From contig JAHJVW010000128.1 in the NCBI GenBank assembly GCA_018828585.1, forward strand, positions 1 to 64,000: DNA of 64,000 nt. The letters run 5' to 3'. Below, one piece after another: positions 7,962-19,073 of the stretch. The position numbers and the translations under genes were made by a program. The notes below the pieces were generated by a model. That model saw only the letters and a program-made list of their open reading frames with translations. It ran no database searches and was not told the DNA's origin. This stretch comes from Bacteroidota bacterium (lineage in GTDB: Bacteria > Bacteroidota > Bacteroidia > Sphingobacteriales > Sphingobacteriaceae). The first letter of the stretch is position 1, and each line of letters starts with the position of its first letter.

Positions 7962-8774
7962 CTATCTATTTACAATTAATGTAAGTCCGGGAGCAGCCGC
8001 AACAGTTCTTGCTGGAGTAAAACCAGGAATGGTATAGGTTGCATTAAAACCTCTTGAAAAATAAGTATAAGCCTTACCTGCAACAGCTGTTAGATTTATA
8101 GATGAACCTACATTAGTGTTGGTACCAGTAGATTTTAGTTGAAACTGATAAGGAGTTCCTACAGCAGTTGCATCAATAGCGATAAAATCTTTAGAAGTTC
8201 CTTTCGCAACATTAGAAAAAATTGCAGTTGATGATGTAGGATTAACTGCCCCATCAGGAATTACACCTGAATAGAAATCCATCGCTGTTCCATCTGGCAT
8301 TGCGTTAACAAATCTAATGAACGCCTTTCCTGCTGTTTGAACTGGTATTTTATCTTCTATTAATAATCCAGATATTGTTGCCCCAGGAGAGCCTACCACA
8401 AAAATGCTGTAATATTTATCAGCTTCAAATGTTGAGGCATTTGTTGATAAAACATTTCCATATGCAATATTTGGTGCAGTAGTTGGAATTGTAGCTGGTG
8501 TATTAACTACGGCTTTTACTGTTAAGCTTCCAGGTGATGATAAGCTATATTCAGTAAGCGGAAAACGGCTTATGAAAGCTATTGTGCTCCCATTAATTTT
8601 TACATCATTTACCAATACATCAAGATTTGGCGATCCAGGTAATGCATTAACAACAGTAATTCTGGTTTTATTAGTTACAATTTCTTGTGTAGGTTTAATC
8701 TCATTCTTATCACAAGCACTGATGATTATGCTTATCGAGAAGATGATGGACCATATTTTATATGTTATTTTCAT
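7962..8774 (-). CDS. DUF4397 domain lipoprotein
   Basis: This 270-aa lipoprotein has a signal peptide and lipobox (IIISAC) and two Ig-like repeats of the DUF4397 type. Each repeat begins with the pattern IRFVNAMPD or ITVVNALPG followed by a D-x-x-x-G segment. It is last in the operon after susC and susD and is terminated by the hairpin at 7.9 kb. Position and lipidation suggest a cell-surface accessory protein that helps capture the ligand of the SusCD transporter. No enzymatic residues are apparent. Confidence 0.85.
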   Translation of the reverse strand: MKITYKIWSIIFSISIIISACDKNEIKPTQEIVTNKTRITVVNALPGSPNLDVLVNDVKINGSTIAFISRFPLTEYSLSSPGSLTVKAVVNTPATIPTTAPNIAYGNVLSTNASTFEADKYYSIFVVGSPGATISGLLIEDKIPVQTAGKAFIRFVNAMPDGTAMDFYSGVIPDGAVNPTSSTAIFSNVAKGTSKDFIAIDATAVGTPYQFQLKSTGTNTNVGSSINLTAVAGKAYTYFSRGFNATYTIPGFTPARTVAAAPGLTLIVNR

Positions 8775-8797: not shown

Positions 8798-10375
8798 TTA
8801 TTTAGGGGTAACAAACCAAGGTTCTTTGGTATGATAATCTAATGCTAATGCGCCAATAACGTTTAAAGCATCTACATTCCAAACATATTCAGAATTATAT
8901 CTGGGTCTTATTCTATAGGCCAGTTTACCACCGTTATTTTGATACAAAGGAGGAGTAACAAAGCCTTGATAAACATTGGTATCATATTTAAACCTGCGCA
9001 TATCAGCCCAAACATCTAAATTTCCGTAAACAAAAGAAGCAATCATTTTCTGTTGCATAATGTCACTCATTTTTAATGTTGCAGGAGTTTGTGCCACAGC
9101 TGGACTCAATAAATATGCCGCTTTAGCGGTTGGAGTGATGTAATTCAGAGATGATACATTTGAATTTGCTAAAGGTGGATTACTTACAAAATCTAAGCTT
9201 GCTGTAATGCCTTGCTTGTATGCGGCTAAAGCAGCTGCATTACCTGAATTATTGTTCTTCCTAAATAGCGCCTCGGCTTTCATAAATTGCGTTTGTGCAT
9301 AGGTAAGAATAACACCTCTAGAATTATCTCTAAAAATATATTTTGTTGCTGTACCTGCAACTGGTAACGGAGCAGAAACTGGAGTACCCCATAAGTATGG
9401 GATTTTTAAAGCTGTCGAATTCACATCTCCTTTAGTTGCTTCAACGCCTCTATATACACCATCACTTGAGGGCGCTAATAATTGCGCTAGCCTAGGATCT
9501 AATTTATTATCAGGATTAGTAGAACCCGTTAAAATTCTTCCATCCAATAGTTTAACCATGTAATCTGATTGACGGAAAGAGTTTAAATTTTGTCTTGCTG
9601 GTCCCCAGAAGTTAGAATCTCCTGATGAAGATCCATTACACTGGATAGTTGCGTTATCATCATTATTTGCAAAAGATTTATCAACATATTCCACTACTTT
9701 ATCGGCGTTATAAGTTGTAGTATTTGATCTGTGAGCAGCATTAATAGCTAAAACACCATAAACAAATTTTATCCATTTTGCTCGATCACCGTAGTACATA
9801 TAATCCCCTCTTGCTAAATTTACTTGAGAAACTGCCCCGTCGGTACGATTAAGGTTTGTCAAAGCTAGATTGCATAATCTAACTACCTCATCATAAACTT
9901 CTTCTTGTTTATCATAATCGAATTTCGCTCTCGTTCCGTCCCATGCTTCTTTGAGAATCATTTCGCCATAAATATCAGTACTGGTTTGCCAGCTCCATGC
10001 CCGAATGGCATAAGCAACTCCCGCATAATCCCATTTTTGACCTGCCAAAGCATCTTCCAACATCAAATCAATGTTTGTTCCAATAGCAAAGTAATGTTGG
10101 CGCCATTTTTCTCCAGGAGTATCAGAACCTGGATTGTATCCCTGTGACTCGAAAACATTATTTGCTGCACCTGAACCCCATATTTGAGCATATTGACCTA
10201 CCGCTCGGGCATCAAACCATTCTCCTCTTTCCATATTTGCCAAAATTGGAGCCAATAGGTTTGCAGCATCAGTTTTTTGAGGGTTATTTGGACTCACATT
10301 GACATCCAAATAATTTTTACAACCACTTGCTAAAATTATGGTTGCTAGTAATATTGAGAATTTTATCTTTTTCAT
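8798..10375 (-). CDS. SusD/RagB family nutrient-binding lipoprotein
   Basis: The 525-aa protein starts with a signal peptide and lipobox (ILASGC, Cys19). It continues with KNYLDVNVSPNNP, the hallmark beginning of the SusD_2-type subfamily. The helical TPR-like body binds substrate and caps the SusC barrel at the cell surface. It lies 12 bp downstream of the SusC gene, so the two are co-transcribed. The subfamily is often tied to peptides or amino-sugar-containing ligands rather than starch. The linked AnmK/NagB genes make peptidoglycan or amino-sugar fragments a reasonable guess. Confidence 0.92.
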   Translation of the reverse strand: MKKIKFSILLATIILASGCKNYLDVNVSPNNPQKTDAANLLAPILANMERGEWFDARAVGQYAQIWGSGAANNVFESQGYNPGSDTPGEKWRQHYFAIGTNIDLMLEDALAGQKWDYAGVAYAIRAWSWQTSTDIYGEMILKEAWDGTRAKFDYDKQEEVYDEVVRLCNLALTNLNRTDGAVSQVNLARGDYMYYGDRAKWIKFVYGVLAINAAHRSNTTTYNADKVVEYVDKSFANNDDNATIQCNGSSSGDSNFWGPARQNLNSFRQSDYMVKLLDGRILTGSTNPDNKLDPRLAQLLAPSSDGVYRGVEATKGDVNSTALKIPYLWGTPVSAPLPVAGTATKYIFRDNSRGVILTYAQTQFMKAEALFRKNNNSGNAAALAAYKQGITASLDFVSNPPLANSNVSSLNYITPTAKAAYLLSPAVAQTPATLKMSDIMQQKMIASFVYGNLDVWADMRRFKYDTNVYQGFVTPPLYQNNGGKLAYRIRPRYNSEYVWNVDALNVIGALALDYHTKEPWFVTPK

Positions 10376-10387
10376 AATTATTTTTCT

Positions 10388-13300
10388 TTAAAGCCCAACT
10401 CTTAAACCAAATGAAAATGTTCTTGGAGTTGATAATGCACCATAATCAAACCCGGCAGCTCCTGAGCCTAAGGTTGAAGAGTTTGTTCCGTTTACATTTG
10501 GATCAGCACCGGAGTAATTGGTAATCATAAAAACATCGGTTCCTGTAAAGAAAACACTAGCGGTTTTAAATACTTTTTGCTTTTGCAATAAACTAGTTGG
10601 AAATCCATAGCTTAATGTAAAGTCTTGCAAACGAACCCAATTAACATTTTTTTCAATAAAATCCGACTCTATACTTGCGGAAGTATAAAAGTTTTGATTG
10701 TAGTATGGAGTTACTTGAATAGTATTAATAGTGGGTGTTGCGGAATTTTGTAAACCATCATTTAACACCCCAGGTACGATAATAGGTTGTTCTCTATTCT
10801 CAGTTCTTTTACTCAATCCTAATCGGGTTAATAACAGTTCGTTTCCGTTAAATACATCTCCTCCTTTTCTGATGTCAAACAAGAAAGATAAACTCACATT
10901 TTTATAAGTAAATCTATTTATTAAACCAACTATGAAATCGGGTTGACGGTCACCTGTAATTTTAAAAACACCATTAGAAACTGGCAAACCAGTTGTAGGG
11001 CTTATTAATACTTGGCCATTATTGTTTCTTGCGTAGTCATAGCTTCCAATTGAAGTTGTAGAGCCTCCAGGGAATAAGCTTGCTCTCGCATTAGCATATA
11101 ACCAAGTGTCTGAATTATAGTATTCTGGTAAATCGGCAGGAAGTTTTACGACTTTCCCTCTAGCTCGTGTAAAATTAATATCAGAATTCCATGTGAAATT
11201 AGCCGTTTTTACAGGTGTAGAAGTTAATTGAATTTCAACTCCTGAGTTTTCAATAGTACCACCATTAATGTATTGAAGAACAAATCCTCCACCGTAACTA
11301 ATTCTAGGGGCTATAATTTGATTGGTTGGCTTGGTATTATAGTAAGCAACGTCTAATCCTAACCTGCCTTTAAAGAATTGCAATTCTGTACCGACCTCAA
11401 AAGATTTTACTTTTTCAGGAACTAAAAAAGGATTACCCCCAAAAACACTGTACTGGAAACCACCACCTGTAGTAGATTGTGAATCTAAGTTTGTTCCTGT
11501 CTTATATGGCGGCGCATCTTTTCCAACCTCGGCATAAGAAGCCCTTAATTTACCATAAGATAAAATTTTACTGCCTTTTAGTGCAGGTAGTTGAGTGAAC
11601 TCAAAACTACCTCCTACAGATGGGTAAAAAAAGGATTGATTTTCTTTAGGTAAGGTTGAAGAATAATCGTTTCTTCCGGTCACCTGAAGGTTTACCATAT
11701 CTTTCCAATTTAAATTAAATCTACCAATTAAAGCTAGCCTCCTTCTTTGTGTAATGGTTGATTTGGCTCTTTGACTTGTTGGGTCGGTATTGTTGATTCC
11801 ATTAAAAGCTAATTCAAAAAATTTCTCGCCGTAAATTGTATTTACTTCATCTTTGGTGTCAAAAGCCTCGCCTCCTAATGCCAATGTTCCTCTAAAATCT
11901 CTAATGGTTTTTTTAGCAGTTGCAAAAAATGAACCATTTAAGAGCAAATTATTATCAGTATAATTTTCTAAAATCCCTCTAGCACTAATTCCACTAGTGG
12001 AGTTAAAACCGTTTAAAGGAGAGTTTTGAGAAGCCGTACTAAACGGACTAATTAGCGAATTACCTAACGTATTATAGAAATCGGCACCAACCAATCCCCT
12101 TAAATTTAACCACTTATATGCATCATAGGATAAGTCTAAATTGCCAACCATTCTGTTGGTCTTATCTTTATTTACATTATTATTAATATCAAAGAAGGGA
12201 TTATCAGTATCAGAACCATCATTTGACGCTCTTAATCTTCTTCTAGTTCCATCAGGATTTAGATACACCCTAACATCATCATCAGCAGGCCAGGTTAATA
12301 AATTTAAAAAAGTTCCTGTAGCTCCTTTATTGTTTTTTTCTGTTTGATTATTAAAATAGTTAAAAGATCCGGAAGCCTTAAATTTTTCAGAAACTTTGGT
12401 TGCTCCAGATAATCTAACTGAAACTCTTTGATTAGAAGTTCCTGGGAAAACACCGTCAGCTTTCCTATATTGAGTAGAAACTCTGAAAGTTGTGGTTTCA
12501 CTTCCACCATCAAAACTTAAATTATGTTGTTGACTAGCACCCGTTCTAAAAAAACTTCCGTTATTGTCAAAAATTTGAGTGCCTGTAGTAAAACGAGGTC
12601 CAAATGCTGATCTAACATTTATATCTTGAACGCCGTTTATACCTCTTCCATAGGAGGTTTGAATTTCTGGAAAGCGATATACGTTTGAGAAGCTAAAGTT
12701 GTTATCATAAGAAATTGAACCTACACCTGCTTTACCTTTTTTGGTAGTGATAATGATTGCACCTGAAGCAGCATCAGAACCATAGAGTGCTGCTGCTTCA
12801 GGGCCTTTTAGAACTGTAACACTAGCAATGTCATTCGGGTTAATATCACCCGCTCTATTTAAATAATCAGCATTTCTGTTTGGTCCATCGGACGCAAGCG
12901 CTCCTTGTCCAAAGGTGCTATTGTCAATTCTAATACCATCAATGATAAATAATGGCTGATTATTGCCTCCTATAGAATTTACACCTCTAAGAACAATAGA
13001 TGAGCTTGCTCCAGGGTTACCGCTTGTACTTGTTACTGTTAGACCCGCTACTCTACCTTGTAAGGCATTAAGAAAATTTTCTCTTTGAGTATCTGCAATG
13101 TCTTTACCCTGAACTGTTTGTGTTGCTGTTACCAAATCTTTCTTCAGTGCACTTTGACCAAAGCCTAAGACAACCACTTCTCCTAAAGCTTTAGCATCTT
13201 GTTTTAACACAACATTAATTTGGTTTGCGACTCCAACCGTTTTTTCCTGATTTAAGGTCCCTAAAAAGGAGAAAACAAGTACGTCTCCCGCTTTTGCTCG

Positions 13301-13489
13301 AATACTATATTTTCCGGATACATCCGTTTGAGTGCCTATAGACGATCCCTTGATCTTTACGGAAACCCCAGGCAATGGTAATCCGTCTTCAATTGAAGTT
13401 ACTGTTCCAGTAATCGTTTTTTCCTGAGCGTTAACAAACCCGATCAAAAAAAACATTCCGAAAAGTAACAGAAGTAAGTTTTTTTTCAT
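10388..13489 (-). CDS. SusC/RagA family TonB-linked outer-membrane transporter
   Basis: The 1033-aa product has a signal peptide (ending near FVNAQ), a CarboxypepD_reg-like domain (about residues 24-100) and the SusC-type plug with LQGRVAGL, SIVLRG and FIIDGIRI. A long barrel follows, ending in FSFGLRVGL. I moved the start from 13540 to the ATG at 13489, because it begins directly with the charged-hydrophobic signal peptide (MKKNLLLLLF). It heads an operon with susD and the DUF4397 gene. A 20-bp operator-like sequence lies about 80 bp upstream, shared with the deoR-type and nagB/anmK regions. Confidence 0.92.
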   Translation of the reverse strand: MKKNLLLLLFGMFFLIGFVNAQEKTITGTVTSIEDGLPLPGVSVKIKGSSIGTQTDVSGKYSIRAKAGDVLVFSFLGTLNQEKTVGVANQINVVLKQDAKALGEVVVLGFGQSALKKDLVTATQTVQGKDIADTQRENFLNALQGRVAGLTVTSTSGNPGASSSIVLRGVNSIGGNNQPLFIIDGIRIDNSTFGQGALASDGPNRNADYLNRAGDINPNDIASVTVLKGPEAAALYGSDAASGAIIITTKKGKAGVGSISYDNNFSFSNVYRFPEIQTSYGRGINGVQDINVRSAFGPRFTTGTQIFDNNGSFFRTGASQQHNLSFDGGSETTTFRVSTQYRKADGVFPGTSNQRVSVRLSGATKVSEKFKASGSFNYFNNQTEKNNKGATGTFLNLLTWPADDDVRVYLNPDGTRRRLRASNDGSDTDNPFFDINNNVNKDKTNRMVGNLDLSYDAYKWLNLRGLVGADFYNTLGNSLISPFSTASQNSPLNGFNSTSGISARGILENYTDNNLLLNGSFFATAKKTIRDFRGTLALGGEAFDTKDEVNTIYGEKFFELAFNGINNTDPTSQRAKSTITQRRRLALIGRFNLNWKDMVNLQVTGRNDYSSTLPKENQSFFYPSVGGSFEFTQLPALKGSKILSYGKLRASYAEVGKDAPPYKTGTNLDSQSTTGGGFQYSVFGGNPFLVPEKVKSFEVGTELQFFKGRLGLDVAYYNTKPTNQIIAPRISYGGGFVLQYINGGTIENSGVEIQLTSTPVKTANFTWNSDINFTRARGKVVKLPADLPEYYNSDTWLYANARASLFPGGSTTSIGSYDYARNNNGQVLISPTTGLPVSNGVFKITGDRQPDFIVGLINRFTYKNVSLSFLFDIRKGGDVFNGNELLLTRLGLSKRTENREQPIIVPGVLNDGLQNSATPTINTIQVTPYYNQNFYTSASIESDFIEKNVNWVRLQDFTLSYGFPTSLLQKQKVFKTASVFFTGTDVFMITNYSGADPNVNGTNSSTLGSGAAGFDYGALSTPRTFSFGLRVGL

Positions 13490-13569
13490 GTTAAAAATTT
13501 TAAGGTTAAGTATTATTTCTTTGAAAGTGCAGTTTTTCAAGACAATAATAGGATAAAGATTAGATAATT

Positions 13570-13589
13570 TGCATAATAACGCAAATTAT
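13570..13589. promoter_or_regulatory. Candidate regulator operator A, upstream of susC
   Basis: TGCATAATAACGCAAATTAT places TGCA and CGCA exactly 10 bp apart, one helical turn. The site also lies in an inverted repeat (13564-13589, 9-bp arms ATAATTTGC/GCAAATTAT, 8-nt spacer). The same 20-bp pattern YGCAWWAWMHCGCARAWWAW occurs upstream of the DeoR-type gene and between anmK and nagB. Confidence 0.5.
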
Positions 13590-13734
13590 TATCACAATTT
13601 TTTTTACTATATTAGTGTATTATTTACACAAATAAATATTGTAACCTATTATAATACAGATTTTTAAGTTGTTAATATTATTTTTTATTTATCTGTTTTA
13701 TCTAAAAAAAGATATCAAAATGTTTTATATAAGC

Positions 13735-13754
13735 CGCAAAAACTCGCAGAAAAA
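13735..13754. promoter_or_regulatory. Candidate regulator operator B, upstream of deoR-type gene
   Basis: CGCAAAAACTCGCAGAAAAA has two CGCA cores 10 bp apart. A further TGCAGA core follows 20 bp later (13765) and a reversed core TTGCGTT at 13794-13800. DeoR-family proteins commonly bind direct repeats with about one-turn spacing, so autoregulation is plausible. The 353-bp gap 13490-13842 otherwise holds only AT-rich sequence and the -7 element at 13823. Confidence 0.5.
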
Positions 13755-13822
13755 TCTAATTTAATGCAGACTCATAATTTTATTTACTGGTAATTGCGTT
13801 TTTTTATTCTAGAATCAAAAAT

Positions 13823-13830
13823 TATATTTG
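13823..13830 (+). promoter_or_regulatory. Candidate -7 promoter element of deoR-type gene
   Basis: TATATTTG matches the Bacteroidota -7 consensus TANNTTTG and lies 12 bp before the ATG. A good -33 TTTG is not seen at the usual spacing. The reversed TTGCG core at 13794 would overlap the -33 area. Confidence 0.4.
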
Positions 13831-13842
13831 AAAAAAAAGTAG

Positions 13843-14589
13843 ATGTTAAAAAAAGAGCGCCAAACCTACATCATGAAGCAGATAAATCTGCACAATAAAG
13901 TACTTTCATCAGATTTGAGTCAACAATTAGATGTATCTGAGGATACAATAAGAAGAGACTTAAATGAATTAGACGAAGCTGGTAAATTATTAAAAGTGCA
14001 TGGCGGAGCGCTCTCAAAATCTTTCCATTTCCCTTTTCATCAAAATGAAGTTTATGCCCAAGAGTCCAAAAGGCAAGTGGCTTTAAAAGCCATTAACTTA
14101 ATTAAAGAGGGGATGGTTGTTTTAACTGGTGGTGGAACTACCATGATTGAAATGGCAAAATTGATGCCTGAAGAACTCGATGCAACTTTCTTTACAATTA
14201 GCCCGCTGGTTGCTTTAGAATTGGCAGAACATCCTCGTCTAACAGTAATTCTAATAGGAGGTCAATTATCCAAAAATGCTCAAATTAATATCGGCGCTAG
14301 GGTTATCAACGATTTATCTGAAATAAAAGTTGATATCTGTTTTTTAGGAGCTAATGGAATTGATTTTAAAGAGGGAATTACTGATTCTGACTGGGAGGTA
14401 GTACAGGTAAAAAAAGCAATGATTAAATCAACAGCAAAAGTGGTGATTTTGAGTATCGCTGAAAAGTTAAACTCTGTTCAAAAAATGAGGGTTTGTGGAT
14501 TAAATCAAGTCACTCATTTTATAACTGATTTAGATCCTGGAAGCGAAGATTTAGCTCCTTTTAAAGATGGAAACATTCAAATTTTTTAA
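13843..14589 (+). CDS. DeoR/GlpR family transcriptional regulator
   Basis: The 248-aa protein has an N-terminal winged HTH (about residues 5-58, with SSDLSQQLDVSEDTIRRDL as the helix-turn-helix). Its C-terminal effector domain is of the phosphosugar-sensing DeoRC type, with the TGGGTTMIEMA and LIGGQLSKNAQ segments. Such proteins usually repress sugar genes until a phosphorylated sugar binds. It sits between the susC operon and anmK/nagB, and each of these control regions has a matching operator-like sequence, including its own. A phosphorylated amino sugar such as MurNAc-6-P or GlcN-6-P is the likely effector, by inference. Confidence 0.9.
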   Translation: MLKKERQTYIMKQINLHNKVLSSDLSQQLDVSEDTIRRDLNELDEAGKLLKVHGGALSKSFHFPFHQNEVYAQESKRQVALKAINLIKEGMVVLTGGGTTMIEMAKLMPEELDATFFTISPLVALELAEHPRLTVILIGGQLSKNAQINIGARVINDLSEIKVDICFLGANGIDFKEGITDSDWEVVQVKKAMIKSTAKVVILSIAEKLNSVQKMRVCGLNQVTHFITDLDPGSEDLAPFKDGNIQIF

Positions 14590-15773
14590 TTTGGGAAACT
14601 AATCTTACCCATACTTTTAGTTTGATCTCCAAAAGCTTCGTAATCTCCAGCAACCGTTTCATTTGCCAAAATTGCGAAAAGTACTGTTTCTTTGGCATCT
14701 GGATGAATCATTAAATCACTCGTACTTTTAAAAATTGCAAATGGAACTAACCCTTCTAAATTTTTCATCAACAATGGATTTTGAAAACCACCACCACTAG
14801 TATAAACCACGGGATGAGTAGTGTGATCAAAGATTTGATTGATAGCTACGGAAATCCCTTCAGCTGTAAAGCGATTAAGGGTTGCCATTATATCTTCTGC
14901 TTTCAGGTTGTTTTTATTAGATTTTTCAATCGCATTTTCCAAATACTTTAAATTAAACAGTTCTGGTCCTGTAGTTTTTGGAAGTTGTTGATTGAAAAAC
15001 GGATGATTTAATAATTCATTCAGTAATTCAGTATCGACTACACCTTCTAATGCCATTGAAGCATTCAAATCATAATATTTATTTCCCGTTACTTTTAGAA
15101 TAAATTGATCCATTAAGGTATTTCCAGGTCCAACATCTGTGCTTATTGCATTTGCAAATACAGCATCTTTTTTTAAAATGGTAAAATTCGCGATTCCACC
15201 AATATTTAATAAAATGCGGTTTTCTGCGTTATTTCTAAATAAAAGATAATCACCATATAGGGCTAGGGGAGCTCCTTCCTTTCCTTCAGCTATGTTTTTT
15301 TGTCTAAAATCACTTATGGTAATAATTCCTGTTTGCACAGCAATATAATCGCCGTCTCCTATTTGTAAGGTAGCGTTTAGAGGGTTGGCGTCATTTCTAA
15401 GTCGAGCCGGAGAATGATAGATGGTTTGCCCATGACTAGCTATTAAATCAATAGCCTCAGATTTCAAATTTTGTTGGATTAAAAATTGATTTACGGAGTT
15501 AGAAAAATGTTGAGCAATTTCAATATTAAGTAGGCTAATCAATTCCAAATCTGTTTCTTTTAAAAAACAAATTTCTTTTAATTTATGCTTAAATGCTACT
15601 GAATAAGGAAAGCTTTCAAAAGCTAACAAGTCAACTTTTACCGCTAATCCATTACCGCTAATTTTACACAAACCGACATCAACTCCGTCTAATGATGTAC
15701 CAGACATTAAACCAATTATTAATCGGTCCTTTTTTTTAGCTATTTCACACAGTTTGCTAACTTGTTTATTCAT
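14586..15773 (-). CDS. anmK: Anhydro-N-acetylmuramic acid kinase
   Basis: AnmK phosphorylates and opens 1,6-anhydro-MurNAc from peptidoglycan turnover to give MurNAc-6-phosphate. The 395-aa protein begins with the ATPase-fold phosphate loop IIGLMSGTSLDGVDVGL. It also has the ASHGQTIYHSP segment, ILLNIGGIANFT, DVGPGNTLMD and the YTSGGG nucleotide-binding loop. The length is slightly above the usual 370. It ends convergently with the DeoR-type gene, overlapping it by 4 bp, and is divergent from nagB across a 139-bp region with operator C. This places it in an amino-sugar recycling locus. Confidence 0.93.
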   Translation of the reverse strand: MNKQVSKLCEIAKKKDRLIIGLMSGTSLDGVDVGLCKISGNGLAVKVDLLAFESFPYSVAFKHKLKEICFLKETDLELISLLNIEIAQHFSNSVNQFLIQQNLKSEAIDLIASHGQTIYHSPARLRNDANPLNATLQIGDGDYIAVQTGIITISDFRQKNIAEGKEGAPLALYGDYLLFRNNAENRILLNIGGIANFTILKKDAVFANAISTDVGPGNTLMDQFILKVTGNKYYDLNASMALEGVVDTELLNELLNHPFFNQQLPKTTGPELFNLKYLENAIEKSNKNNLKAEDIMATLNRFTAEGISVAINQIFDHTTHPVVYTSGGGFQNPLLMKNLEGLVPFAIFKSTSDLMIHPDAKETVLFAILANETVAGDYEAFGDQTKSMGKISFPN

Positions 15774-15830
15774 TATTTTTAAACTTTATAGATCACAAGA
15801 TAAGACAATAAGGGTTAAATATTTTTAAAT

Positions 15831-15850
15831 TGCAATAAACCGCAAATAAA
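15831..15850. promoter_or_regulatory. Candidate regulator operator C, between anmK and nagB
   Basis: TGCAATAAACCGCAAATAAA repeats the TGCA/CGCA cores at 10-bp spacing seen at operators A and B. A further AACGCAGAATAAAA copy begins at 15868, just upstream of the nagB -7 element, where a bound repressor would block RNA polymerase. Its place between divergent genes could serve both. Confidence 0.5.
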
Positions 15851-15888
15851 AACTATTTTCATCAAAAAACGCAGAATAAAATATTTTG

Positions 15889-15896
15889 TATATTTG
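15889..15896 (+). promoter_or_regulatory. Candidate -7 promoter element of nagB fusion
   Basis: TATATTTG fits TANNTTTG and ends 16 bp before the ATG. The CGCAGAATAAAA half-site occupies the stretch 16-19 bp upstream, consistent with repression by steric block. Confidence 0.45.
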
Positions 15897-15912: not shown

Positions 15913-17835
15913 ATGGCTCGTTTAAACCTTCTAGAATCAACCCGTTTTGAAAAATTACCTGTTACTGTTTATGAAAACGAACAGGATGCCTGCAAAAAAG
16001 TAGCCGCAAAAATTGCAGCATTGATTCATTCTAAGAATGAAAAAATGGAAAAGACCTTTTTGGGTTTGGCAACAGGCGCTACCCCAATTGGGGTCTATAC
16101 TGAGCTGATAAGACTACACAAACAGGAGGGATTAAGCTTCAAAAATGTGGTCACATTTAATTTGGATGAATATTATCCAATGCAGTCGAATGCTGAGCAA
16201 AGCTATGTGCGTTTCATGAACGAGCAATTGTTCAACCACATAGATATACTTCCAAATAATATCAATATTCCGGATGGAACCCTAACAACTGAAGAAGTTC
16301 CTCAATTTTGTCTTAATTACGAAAAGAAAATTACTGCTTATGGCGGTCTAGATTTACAGGTTTTAGGTATCGGAAGAACTGGTCACATTGGTTTTAACGA
16401 ACCCGGTTCGGCACCAAATTCTGGAACAAGAATGGTTACTTTGGATGATTTAACCAGAAAAGATGCTGCAAAAGATTTTGGAGGAAAAGCTAATGTTCCA
16501 ACAAAAGCAATCACCATGGGTGTTGGAACTATTTTTAAAGCAAAGGAAATAATTCTAATGGCTTGGGGAAGCAAAAAAGCACCCATCATTAAAAAAGCAG
16601 TTGAAGGGGAATTATCTGGCGAAGTACCAGCCACCTATTTGCAACTTTCGGATAATGTTGAATTTGTTCTTGATCGTGATGCCGCTTCCCTACTCACTCG
16701 TTTTGATACTCCATGGTTAGTGAAGGATTGTGTTTGGGATGATAAATTAATTAAAAAAGCTGTAATCTGGCTGGCCAATACCGTACAGAAACCTATATTA
16801 AAATTGACTGAAGAAGACTACAACAGCCATGGGATGGCTCAGCTGGCCACAGAGAAGGGCCCCGTTTACAATATAAATATCCATATTTTTAATTTATTGC
16901 AACACACCATCACCGGGTGGCCGGGTGGTAAACCAAATGCTGATGATAGTCAGCGGCCAGAAAGAGCCGAACCAGCGATCAAGCGTTCTATCGTATTCTC
17001 TCCGCATCCAGACGATGATGTAATTTCTATGGGCGGTACTTTCATTCGTTTGGTAGATCAGGGTCATGATGTTCATGTGGCTTATCAAACTTCGGGAAAT
17101 AATGCGGTGTGGGATGACGATGCTTTAAGATATCTAGAGTTTAATATAGATATGGCTAAAACGTTGGGTAAACCCGATGCTGAAATGGAACAACTTCATG
17201 AGAAACTTAAAGTATTTACCCAATCGAAAAATCCTAATCAAAATGATCCAGAAGAACTGAAACAAATAAAAGGATTGATAAGAAAAGGCGAAGCAACAGC
17301 AGGTGCAAGGTATTGTGGTTTAAATGATGATCATATACACTTTATGAATATGCCTTTTTATGAGAAAAGAAAATCGAGCAGAAAGAATGAAGTTTCTGAG
17401 GACGATGTCAAAGTAACTATTGACTTTTTGCAGAGCATAAAACCACAGCAAATATTTGCCGCAGGAGATTTTGCCGACCCCCATGGAACACATAAAATAT
17501 GTTTCGAGGCTATAAAAAGAGCCATGGAAAAACTAAGGAAGACAGAAAAATGGGCCAAAGATTGTTGGGTTTGGTTGTACAGGGGGGCGTGGCATGAGTG
17601 GGAAATCCATGAAATTGAAATGGCAGTTCCGTTGTCTCCCAAAGAATTAGAGCGAAAAAGAAATGCCATTTTTAAACACCAATCTCAAAAAGATCGTCCG
17701 GTTTTTCCGGGTGATGATTCTCGTGAGTTTTGGGTAAGAGCCGAAGAACGAAACAGAGATACCGCCAAGCAATATGATGATTTGGGCCTAGCAAACTATG
17801 AGGCTATGGAAGCTTTTGTAAAATGGAAATTTTAA
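15913..17835 (+). CDS. nagB: Glucosamine-6-phosphate deaminase-like / PIG-L deacetylase-like fusion
   Basis: This 640-aa protein joins two domains. Residues about 15-265 are NagB-like, converting GlcN-6-P to Fru-6-P and ammonia, with GLATGATPIGVY and NLDEYY (Asp85). GHIGFNEPGS carries His158 and Glu163. Residues about 355-630 are a PIG-L/LmbE-type metal-dependent deacetylase fold with SPHPDDD (His365, Asp367/368) and DPHGTH. In E. coli NagB the residue two before the catalytic His is Asp; here it is Thr (GRTGH), so activity may differ. The same architecture occurs in Bacteroides, annotated as NagB-like. The fusion could deacetylate GlcNAc derivatives and then deaminate them, by inference. Confidence 0.9.
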   Translation: MARLNLLESTRFEKLPVTVYENEQDACKKVAAKIAALIHSKNEKMEKTFLGLATGATPIGVYTELIRLHKQEGLSFKNVVTFNLDEYYPMQSNAEQSYVRFMNEQLFNHIDILPNNINIPDGTLTTEEVPQFCLNYEKKITAYGGLDLQVLGIGRTGHIGFNEPGSAPNSGTRMVTLDDLTRKDAAKDFGGKANVPTKAITMGVGTIFKAKEIILMAWGSKKAPIIKKAVEGELSGEVPATYLQLSDNVEFVLDRDAASLLTRFDTPWLVKDCVWDDKLIKKAVIWLANTVQKPILKLTEEDYNSHGMAQLATEKGPVYNINIHIFNLLQHTITGWPGGKPNADDSQRPERAEPAIKRSIVFSPHPDDDVISMGGTFIRLVDQGHDVHVAYQTSGNNAVWDDDALRYLEFNIDMAKTLGKPDAEMEQLHEKLKVFTQSKNPNQNDPEELKQIKGLIRKGEATAGARYCGLNDDHIHFMNMPFYEKRKSSRKNEVSEDDVKVTIDFLQSIKPQQIFAAGDFADPHGTHKICFEAIKRAMEKLRKTEKWAKDCWVWLYRGAWHEWEIHEIEMAVPLSPKELERKRNAIFKHQSQKDRPVFPGDDSREFWVRAEERNRDTAKQYDDLGLANYEAMEAFVKWKF

Positions 17836-17942: not shown

Positions 17943-19073
17943 ATGACCCCTGCTCCTGAACTAAAAAAGAGACTGCTTTCATTAGATGTTTTTAGAGGAA
18001 TTACCGTTGCCGCCATGATTTTGGTAAATAATCCAGGAGATTGGAGATATATTTATGCTCCTTTAGAACACTCAGAATGGAATGGTTGCACACCAACAGA
18101 CCTAATATTTCCTTTTTTCTTATTTATAGTTGGTGTATCCATAGTTTATGCGCTTTCAGGGAAGAAAGTAGACGCTTCTAATCATTCAAAAGTCTTGCTT
18201 TCCGTTTTTAAAAGAGCGGCGATTTTATTTGGATTAGGATTATTGCTATCCTTATTTCCTTTCTTTGATTTTTCTGTTGTCCGCATTCCCGGCGTTTTAA
18301 CTAGAATTGCAATAGTATATCTCATCACTGCAATTCTATTTATCAAGTTTAATGAAAAAGTGCTTTTTAGATTGTTTATAGGGTTACTTTTGATTTATTG
18401 GTTGGTAATGACCCTAATTCCTGTACCAGGTATAGGTTTACCTAATTTAGAGCCAGAAACAAACCTTGGTGCTTGGTTAGACCGTACTATTTTTACAGAA
18501 GCCCACTTATGGAAACCTAGTAAAACCTGGGACCCTGAAGGTTTATTAAGTACACTTCCTGCAGTGGCAACGGGTTTATTCGGAATATTAATCGGCCTAA
18601 CCTTAAAGTCAAAACAGCGAACTGATGAAAACAAAGTTGCATGGATGTTTACCTATGGTTTAATTGCGGCTTTAGCTGGTTTGGTTTTAGATTTAGTTTT
18701 TCCTATCAATAAATCTTTATGGACAAGCTCCTTTGTATTGTATACCGGCGGATTGGCTAGTATGGCTTTGGGCTTATGCTATTGGTTAATAGATGTGAAA
18801 GGCTTCACTAAATTTACTAAGCCTTTTGTTATATATGGTGTAAATGCGATTACTGTTTATTTTGCCTCAGGAATTATTGCAAGGTCAATGACCCTTATTT
18901 ATGTACCATTAAATGGTAAAGACGTAACATTAAAAGGCTGGTTTTATGAACAATTTTTCACTCCTTATTTTTCGCCTTATAACGCATCTTTAGCTGGAGC
19001 AATCACCTTCGTATTAATCTGGTTATTGATTTTATGGATAATGTATAGAAAGAACATCATTATCAAAGTTTAA
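17943..19073 (+). CDS. DUF5009 / HGSNAT-like membrane acyltransferase family (NagX-like)
   Basis: This 376-aa inner-membrane protein has about ten hydrophobic segments. The N-terminal signature RLLSLDVFRGITVAAMILVN and then WNGCTPTDLIFPFFLFIVG is that of the DUF5009 family. The family is related to human heparan-alpha-glucosaminide N-acetyltransferase and to NagX of bacterial chitin/GlcNAc loci. A role in acetylating or transporting amino sugars across the inner membrane fits its place after nagB. No DeoR-type operator is seen right upstream. The family is secure; the biochemical role is not. Confidence 0.87.
   Translation: MTPAPELKKRLLSLDVFRGITVAAMILVNNPGDWRYIYAPLEHSEWNGCTPTDLIFPFFLFIVGVSIVYALSGKKVDASNHSKVLLSVFKRAAILFGLGLLLSLFPFFDFSVVRIPGVLTRIAIVYLITAILFIKFNEKVLFRLFIGLLLIYWLVMTLIPVPGIGLPNLEPETNLGAWLDRTIFTEAHLWKPSKTWDPEGLLSTLPAVATGLFGILIGLTLKSKQRTDENKVAWMFTYGLIAALAGLVLDLVFPINKSLWTSSFVLYTGGLASMALGLCYWLIDVKGFTKFTKPFVIYGVNAITVYFASGIIARSMTLIYVPLNGKDVTLKGWFYEQFFTPYFSPYNASLAGAITFVLIWLLILWIMYRKNIIIKV

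Follow-up and report, generated by a model that had tools for sequence, protein, structure and literature searches.

In the locus studied here, a susCD pair, a gene of the DeoR family and genes of amino-sugar metabolism lie next to each other, and the question it raises is whether three similar 20-bp sequences in its control regions are the operators of the DeoR-type protein encoded among them. The window, by which we mean the whole analysed stretch of 64,000 nucleotides, belongs to a 3.58-Mb genome of the family Sphingobacteriaceae. AnmK and NagB carry out steps in the metabolism of 1,6-anhydroMurNAc and of GlcN-6-P, and the usual control of susCD genes is exerted by SusR, HTCS or sigma/anti-sigma systems.

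The Genes and the Three Sites

The genes of the locus, together with two promoter boxes of the Bacteroidota −7 type, are the following:

7962–8774, minus strand: DUF4397 protein (PF14344)
8798–10375, minus strand: susD-like lipoprotein (PF12771)
10388–13489, minus strand: susC, SusC/RagA-type TonB-linked outer-membrane receptor (TIGR04056, 622 bits, cut-off 368)
13823–13830, plus strand: TATATTTG, −7-type promoter box of deoR, present also in genomes G138 and G084
13843–14589, plus strand: deoR, DeoR-family regulator of 248 aa (PF08220 and PF00455, both over their cut-offs)
14586–15773, minus strand: anmK, anhydro-N-acetylmuramic acid kinase (PF03702, 323 bits)
15889–15896, plus strand: TATATTTG, −7-type promoter box of nagB, TAnnTTTG in all genomes compared
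15913–17835, plus strand: nagB-like glucosamine-6-phosphate deaminase fused to a PIG-L domain (NF002557, 1040 bits, cut-off 384)
17943–19073, plus strand: nagX-like membrane acyltransferase (best NCBIfam match NF046061, 192.8 bits, under the cut-off of 480)

Judging from gene spacing, the DUF4397 gene probably belongs to one operon with susC and susD. The nagX-like gene probably forms one with nagB. The DeoR protein combines an N-terminal HTH_DeoR domain (PF08220, 60.2 bits against a cut-off of 21) with a C-terminal DeoRC sensor domain (PF00455, 131.1 bits against 31.8). The candidate sites, scored with a matrix derived from other genomes, are as follows:

13570–13589, plus strand: candidate operator 1, TGCATAATAACGCAAATTAT, on the susC side of the susC–deoR divergent region (20.4 bits)
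13735–13754, plus strand: candidate operator 2, CGCAAAAACTCGCAGAAAAA, upstream of deoR (20.7 bits)
13765–13769, plus strand: half-site TGCAG, 30 bp (three helical turns) past the start of operator 2, kept in G138
15209–15228, minus strand: doubtful operator-like sequence within anmK, CGCAGAAAACCGCATTTTAT (19.8 bits)
15831–15850, plus strand: candidate operator 3, TGCAATAAACCGCAAATAAA, between anmK and nagB (21.2 bits)
15870–15874, plus strand: half-site CGCAG, 39 bp past the start of operator 3

The original prediction had placed the three sites at 13570, 13735 and 15831, upstream of susC, upstream of deoR and between anmK and nagB, with their cores 10 bp apart. The positions proved exact on the plus strand, the GCA cores are separated by exactly 10 bp in all three sites, and the placement relative to the genes (susC ATG at 13489, deoR start at 13843, anmK at 15773, nagB at 15913) is right. 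Of the two extra half-sites that it had named, the one at 13765 stands as TGCAG, whereas the other needed correction, since 15868 is the start of aaCGCAG and CGCAG itself begins at 15870.

Form of the Element

Counts over 25 sites give an element that reads roughly YGCA-N-AAA-M-H-YGCA-A-W-W with an A-rich stretch before it. The run of A that follows the core stays on the same strand in nearly all sites; the unit repeats every 10 bp, and in one case, TGCATAAAGACGCAAAAACACGCA in G144, three units follow each other in a row. Given this strand bias and the 10-bp period, we read the element as a direct repeat and not as a palindrome. A perfect inverted repeat of 9 bp (ATAATTTGC, 8 bp, GCAAATTAT) can also be read in the region of operator 1 at 13564–13589; it was rejected as the functional form, being lost in G065 and G084 while the direct repeat is kept in both.

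Motifs composed of two imperfect direct repeats with a 10–11-bp period have been described for RhaR proteins of the DeoR family (PMC3870299), and our element fits that definition, with two imperfect direct repeats spaced by about one helical turn. The RhaR regulons resemble the present case further in that a DeoR-family protein governs a local sugar regulon, but they comprise rhamnose genes, while here the core is YGCAWAAAMH and the element accompanies amino-sugar genes, a susCD pair and promoters of the Bacteroidota type (PMC3870299).

Could the Resemblance Be Due to Chance?

The resemblance of the three sites might reflect nothing but coincidence among A+T-rich promoter DNA. The consensus first proposed is perfectly matched three times in the genome, always at this locus, and twice more at one mismatch. 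At up to two mismatches, however, there are 35 genome matches against 18 for the reversed pattern, and the consensus is loose, with W at many positions, and circular, having been derived from the three sites themselves. For this reason an independent weight matrix was built from relatives' sites only, with 21 training sites, all from other genomes. This matrix ranks the three sites first to third in the window (20.4–21.2 bits), followed by the sequence inside anmK at 19.8 bits, and the next score in the window is 12.9. The genome-wide scans used degenerate patterns.

Sequences upstream of the orthologues of deoR and of nagB, drawn from about 30 genomes of the family, provided a second line of evidence. 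Fifty-seven such regions, all from genomes other than that of the window and that of its nearest relative, contain YGCA-N6-YGCA 26 times, whereas 300 dinucleotide shuffles gave 0.9 on average and never more than 4. Same-strand YGCA pairs are found at spacing 10 as many as 28 times (mean over spacings 4–45, 2.5), at spacing 9 once and at spacing 11 never. The shuffles and the independent matrix refute an origin by chance, the spacing counts and the conservation across genera also speak against it, and we give it practically no weight.

The match within anmK was considered as a fourth operator and rejected. It is constrained by the codons that it contains (it encodes AENRI), among the orthologues read the pattern is kept only in G084, and it is probably a coding coincidence.

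Conservation in Related Genomes

Thirty deoR loci were examined. The element is present in all 13 divergent susC–deoR intergenic regions and at deoR in none of the 17 loci without an adjacent susC. The divergent regions often carry two elements, all in one orientation, and in eight of the 13 each of the two genes has at least one copy on its side; among the closest relatives of the window the copies lie about 80 bp before susC and 108–110 bp before deoR. Counterparts of operator 1 could be aligned in G138, G065 and G084, and those of operator 2 are found at the same distance in G138 and G084. Upstream of nagB the element occurs in seven other genomes and in G143. The extra half-site near nagB that had been pointed out in the original prediction turned out to be conserved as well, since a third half-site stands at +39/+40 of the nagB element in the window and in four other genomes (G138, G065, G084 and G077).

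Conservation upstream of both the regulator and its presumed targets is accordingly found in other genomes, though not in every genome that bears the DeoR protein. In G086, G098, G103 and G113 the element stays at susC or nagB with deoR not adjacent. Twelve nagB-bearing genomes without a detected deoR have no operator upstream of nagB, one of them offering only 14 bp of upstream sequence. G143 has the operator with no deoR detected, in a genome that is 77% complete and on a contig that ends 866 bp upstream of nagB. Many genomes of the family encode a DeoR protein with the same recognition helix (VSEDTIRRDLNEL) and have no sites at deoR or nagB, from which it follows either that their sites lie elsewhere or that the recognition helix does not settle the specificity.

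Site-less orthologues with this helix were recorded at loci L046–L050 and L052–L060. In the KVHGGA stretch after the helix-turn-helix, Y replaces H in 12 of the 17 site-less loci, and H is kept in all 13 site-bearing ones. In the g4 genomes (L072, L079, L080, L086) the sequences before nagB are CGCACACGATTGCA-like and look like a different kind of element, perhaps a LacI-type palindrome; they were left out of the matrix, and nagB may have come under another regulator there.

Other Candidate Sites in the Genome

A relaxed pattern matches 20 places in the genome, compared with six for the reversed control. Only five intergenic matches reach at least 20 bits, and four of these are at susC, deoR or anmK/nagB. 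The five comprise the three sites of the locus, one on contig C121 and one on contig C46. A match of 21.0 bits at C46:31431, 40 bp before the gene for a 414-aa protein, is common only to the window's genome and its nearest relative G138, and was not counted. By matrix scoring, murQ and nagA of this genome have no site.

On contig C121 the site CGCATAAAGACGCAAATTAT (G000:C121:2521–2540; L005, L151) precedes the susC of a second susCD pair by 29 bp, and a very similar site is found before a more distantly related susC near deoR in G103 (L156, L180). In the closest relatives no orthologue of the C121 susC passed the threshold, and its orthologues in G021, G042 and G124 are without the site; it is a likely, not a certain, target of the regulon.

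Two further matches were seen in other genomes. In G042 and G124, which represent one genus (L158, L163), TGCATAAAAATGCAATT lies 54 bp before an aspS-like gene (aspartyl-tRNA synthetase, N-terminal sequence only), and in G001 (G001:C34:493537, L174) TGCATAAAGCTGCAAAT lies 72 bp before an HSP70-like gene; what appears to be the orthologue of that gene lies beside the C121 susC site in the genome of the window.

Discussion

We consider it probable that the DeoR-type protein encoded at 13843 has its operators in the three sites; it would most likely act as a repressor that an amino-sugar 6-phosphate releases. That the sites are operators of this protein, as the original prediction had it, is favoured by footprinting across genomes, by the site at the regulator's own promoter, by the near-confinement of the sites to the locus and one further susCD pair, and by the 10-bp repeat form; the link to this particular protein is one that we infer. 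Each site directly repeats the unit YGCAWAAAMH every 10 bp, or about one helical turn, and additional half-sites follow downstream at about the same helical face; the protein would contact successive turns. The DeoR protein would control its own gene, the susCD uptake operon, anmK and nagB–nagX, and probably the second susCD pair on contig C121. Binding of GlcN-6-P, GlcNAc-6-P or MurNAc-6-P to the DeoRC domain would release the presumed repressor, and uptake and catabolism of cell-wall amino sugars would then rise together.

It is improbable, in our judgement, that the operators, though real, belong to a different transcription factor whose gene lies elsewhere, with deoR as only one of its targets. 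Such a factor would fit the genomes in which the sites are not adjacent to deoR and the many DeoR orthologues that have the same helix and no site nearby. Against it stand the sites that 13 genomes or loci have at deoR itself, the conserved neighbourhood, which includes no other regulator gene, the repeat form, which fits the DeoR family, and the absence of nagB operators from 12 genomes without a detected deoR.

With the DeoR protein as the binding factor, the sign of its action has to be considered. Most of the DeoR-family proteins that have been studied are repressors, but FucR of E. coli, which acts on the L-fucose operon, is an activator, and our protein might likewise recruit RNA polymerase to the same operators when a phosphosugar is bound. 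The position of the operators is compatible with this, the pair starting 56–78 bp before the nagB −7 box in every lineage (58 bp in the window, start to start) and 88 bp before that of deoR, and among NCBIfam models FucR (NF007720) scores second-best for the protein. That match, however, reaches only 122.3 bits against a cut-off of 259, the conserved half-site at 15870 lies downstream of where the −33 region of nagB is expected and upstream of its −7 box, and in G084 operator 1 shares positions with a −7-type box, TATATTTG, of the susC strand. The last two positions fit repression; activation seems to us unlikely, although it deserves more attention than a foreign binding factor, and repression is the reading that we retain.

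The class of effector is suggested by the neighbouring genes anmK, nagB, nagA and murQ, which point to an amino-sugar 6-phosphate; besides MurNAc-6-P and GlcN-6-P, which had been put forward before, GlcNAc-6-P belongs on the list of candidates. The deoR orthologue adjoins nagA in G028 and a gene for a GHL10 glycosyl hydrolase in G086. In G113 (L206, G113:C5:172000–190000) a cluster of susC, susD and genes for a PKD protein, GHL10, murQ and a sodium symporter, with a divergent deoR at its end, has one operator, before susC, and looks like a locus for the uptake of peptidoglycan sugars. Salvage of cell-wall amino sugars appears to be the thread common to these deoR neighbourhoods, and the neighbouring genes suggest cell-wall amino sugars as the substrate of SusCD.

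AgaR is a DeoR-family repressor of amino-sugar (GalNAc) genes, and MurR, of the RpiR/SIS family, is the repressor of murQP in E. coli. Our protein shares with AgaR the family and the connection to amino-sugar catabolism, and the AgaR curated model does match it, but at 118.3 bits it is far under the cut-off of 260 and the target genes differ. MurR is alike as a local regulator of cell-wall amino-sugar salvage; it belongs to an unrelated protein family and has no susCD among its genes. In Bacteroides thetaiotaomicron the use of sialic acid and GlcNAc is regulated by NanR of the ROK family (PMC3878776). NanR comes from the same phylum and acts on GlcNAc-linked genes, but it is of an unrelated protein family, and that work names no DeoR-family regulator. 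No DeoR regulon for these genes was found described in the open-access literature. The operator would be of a type already known for the DeoR family, and the regulon appears to be new.

We are inclined to think, with only slight preference, that members of this family couple SusCD uptake to cell-wall-sugar salvage directly through a one-component DeoR regulator, in a hitherto undescribed regulon for scavenging peptidoglycan sugars. The salvage side of this coupling would be represented by anmK and nagB here and by the susCD–GHL10–murQ–symporter cluster in a relative, and peptidoglycan-derived sugars are the likely substrate of these SusCD transporters, given that in G103 and G113 their neighbours include GHL10 and murQ. 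For a family in which none was found described, the data provide a testable operator motif and regulon of an amino-sugar regulator. They suggest that some susCD pairs answer to a simple one-component regulator; if the coupling is true, a simple phosphosugar sensor replaces the SusR, HTCS or sigma/anti-sigma control of susCD.
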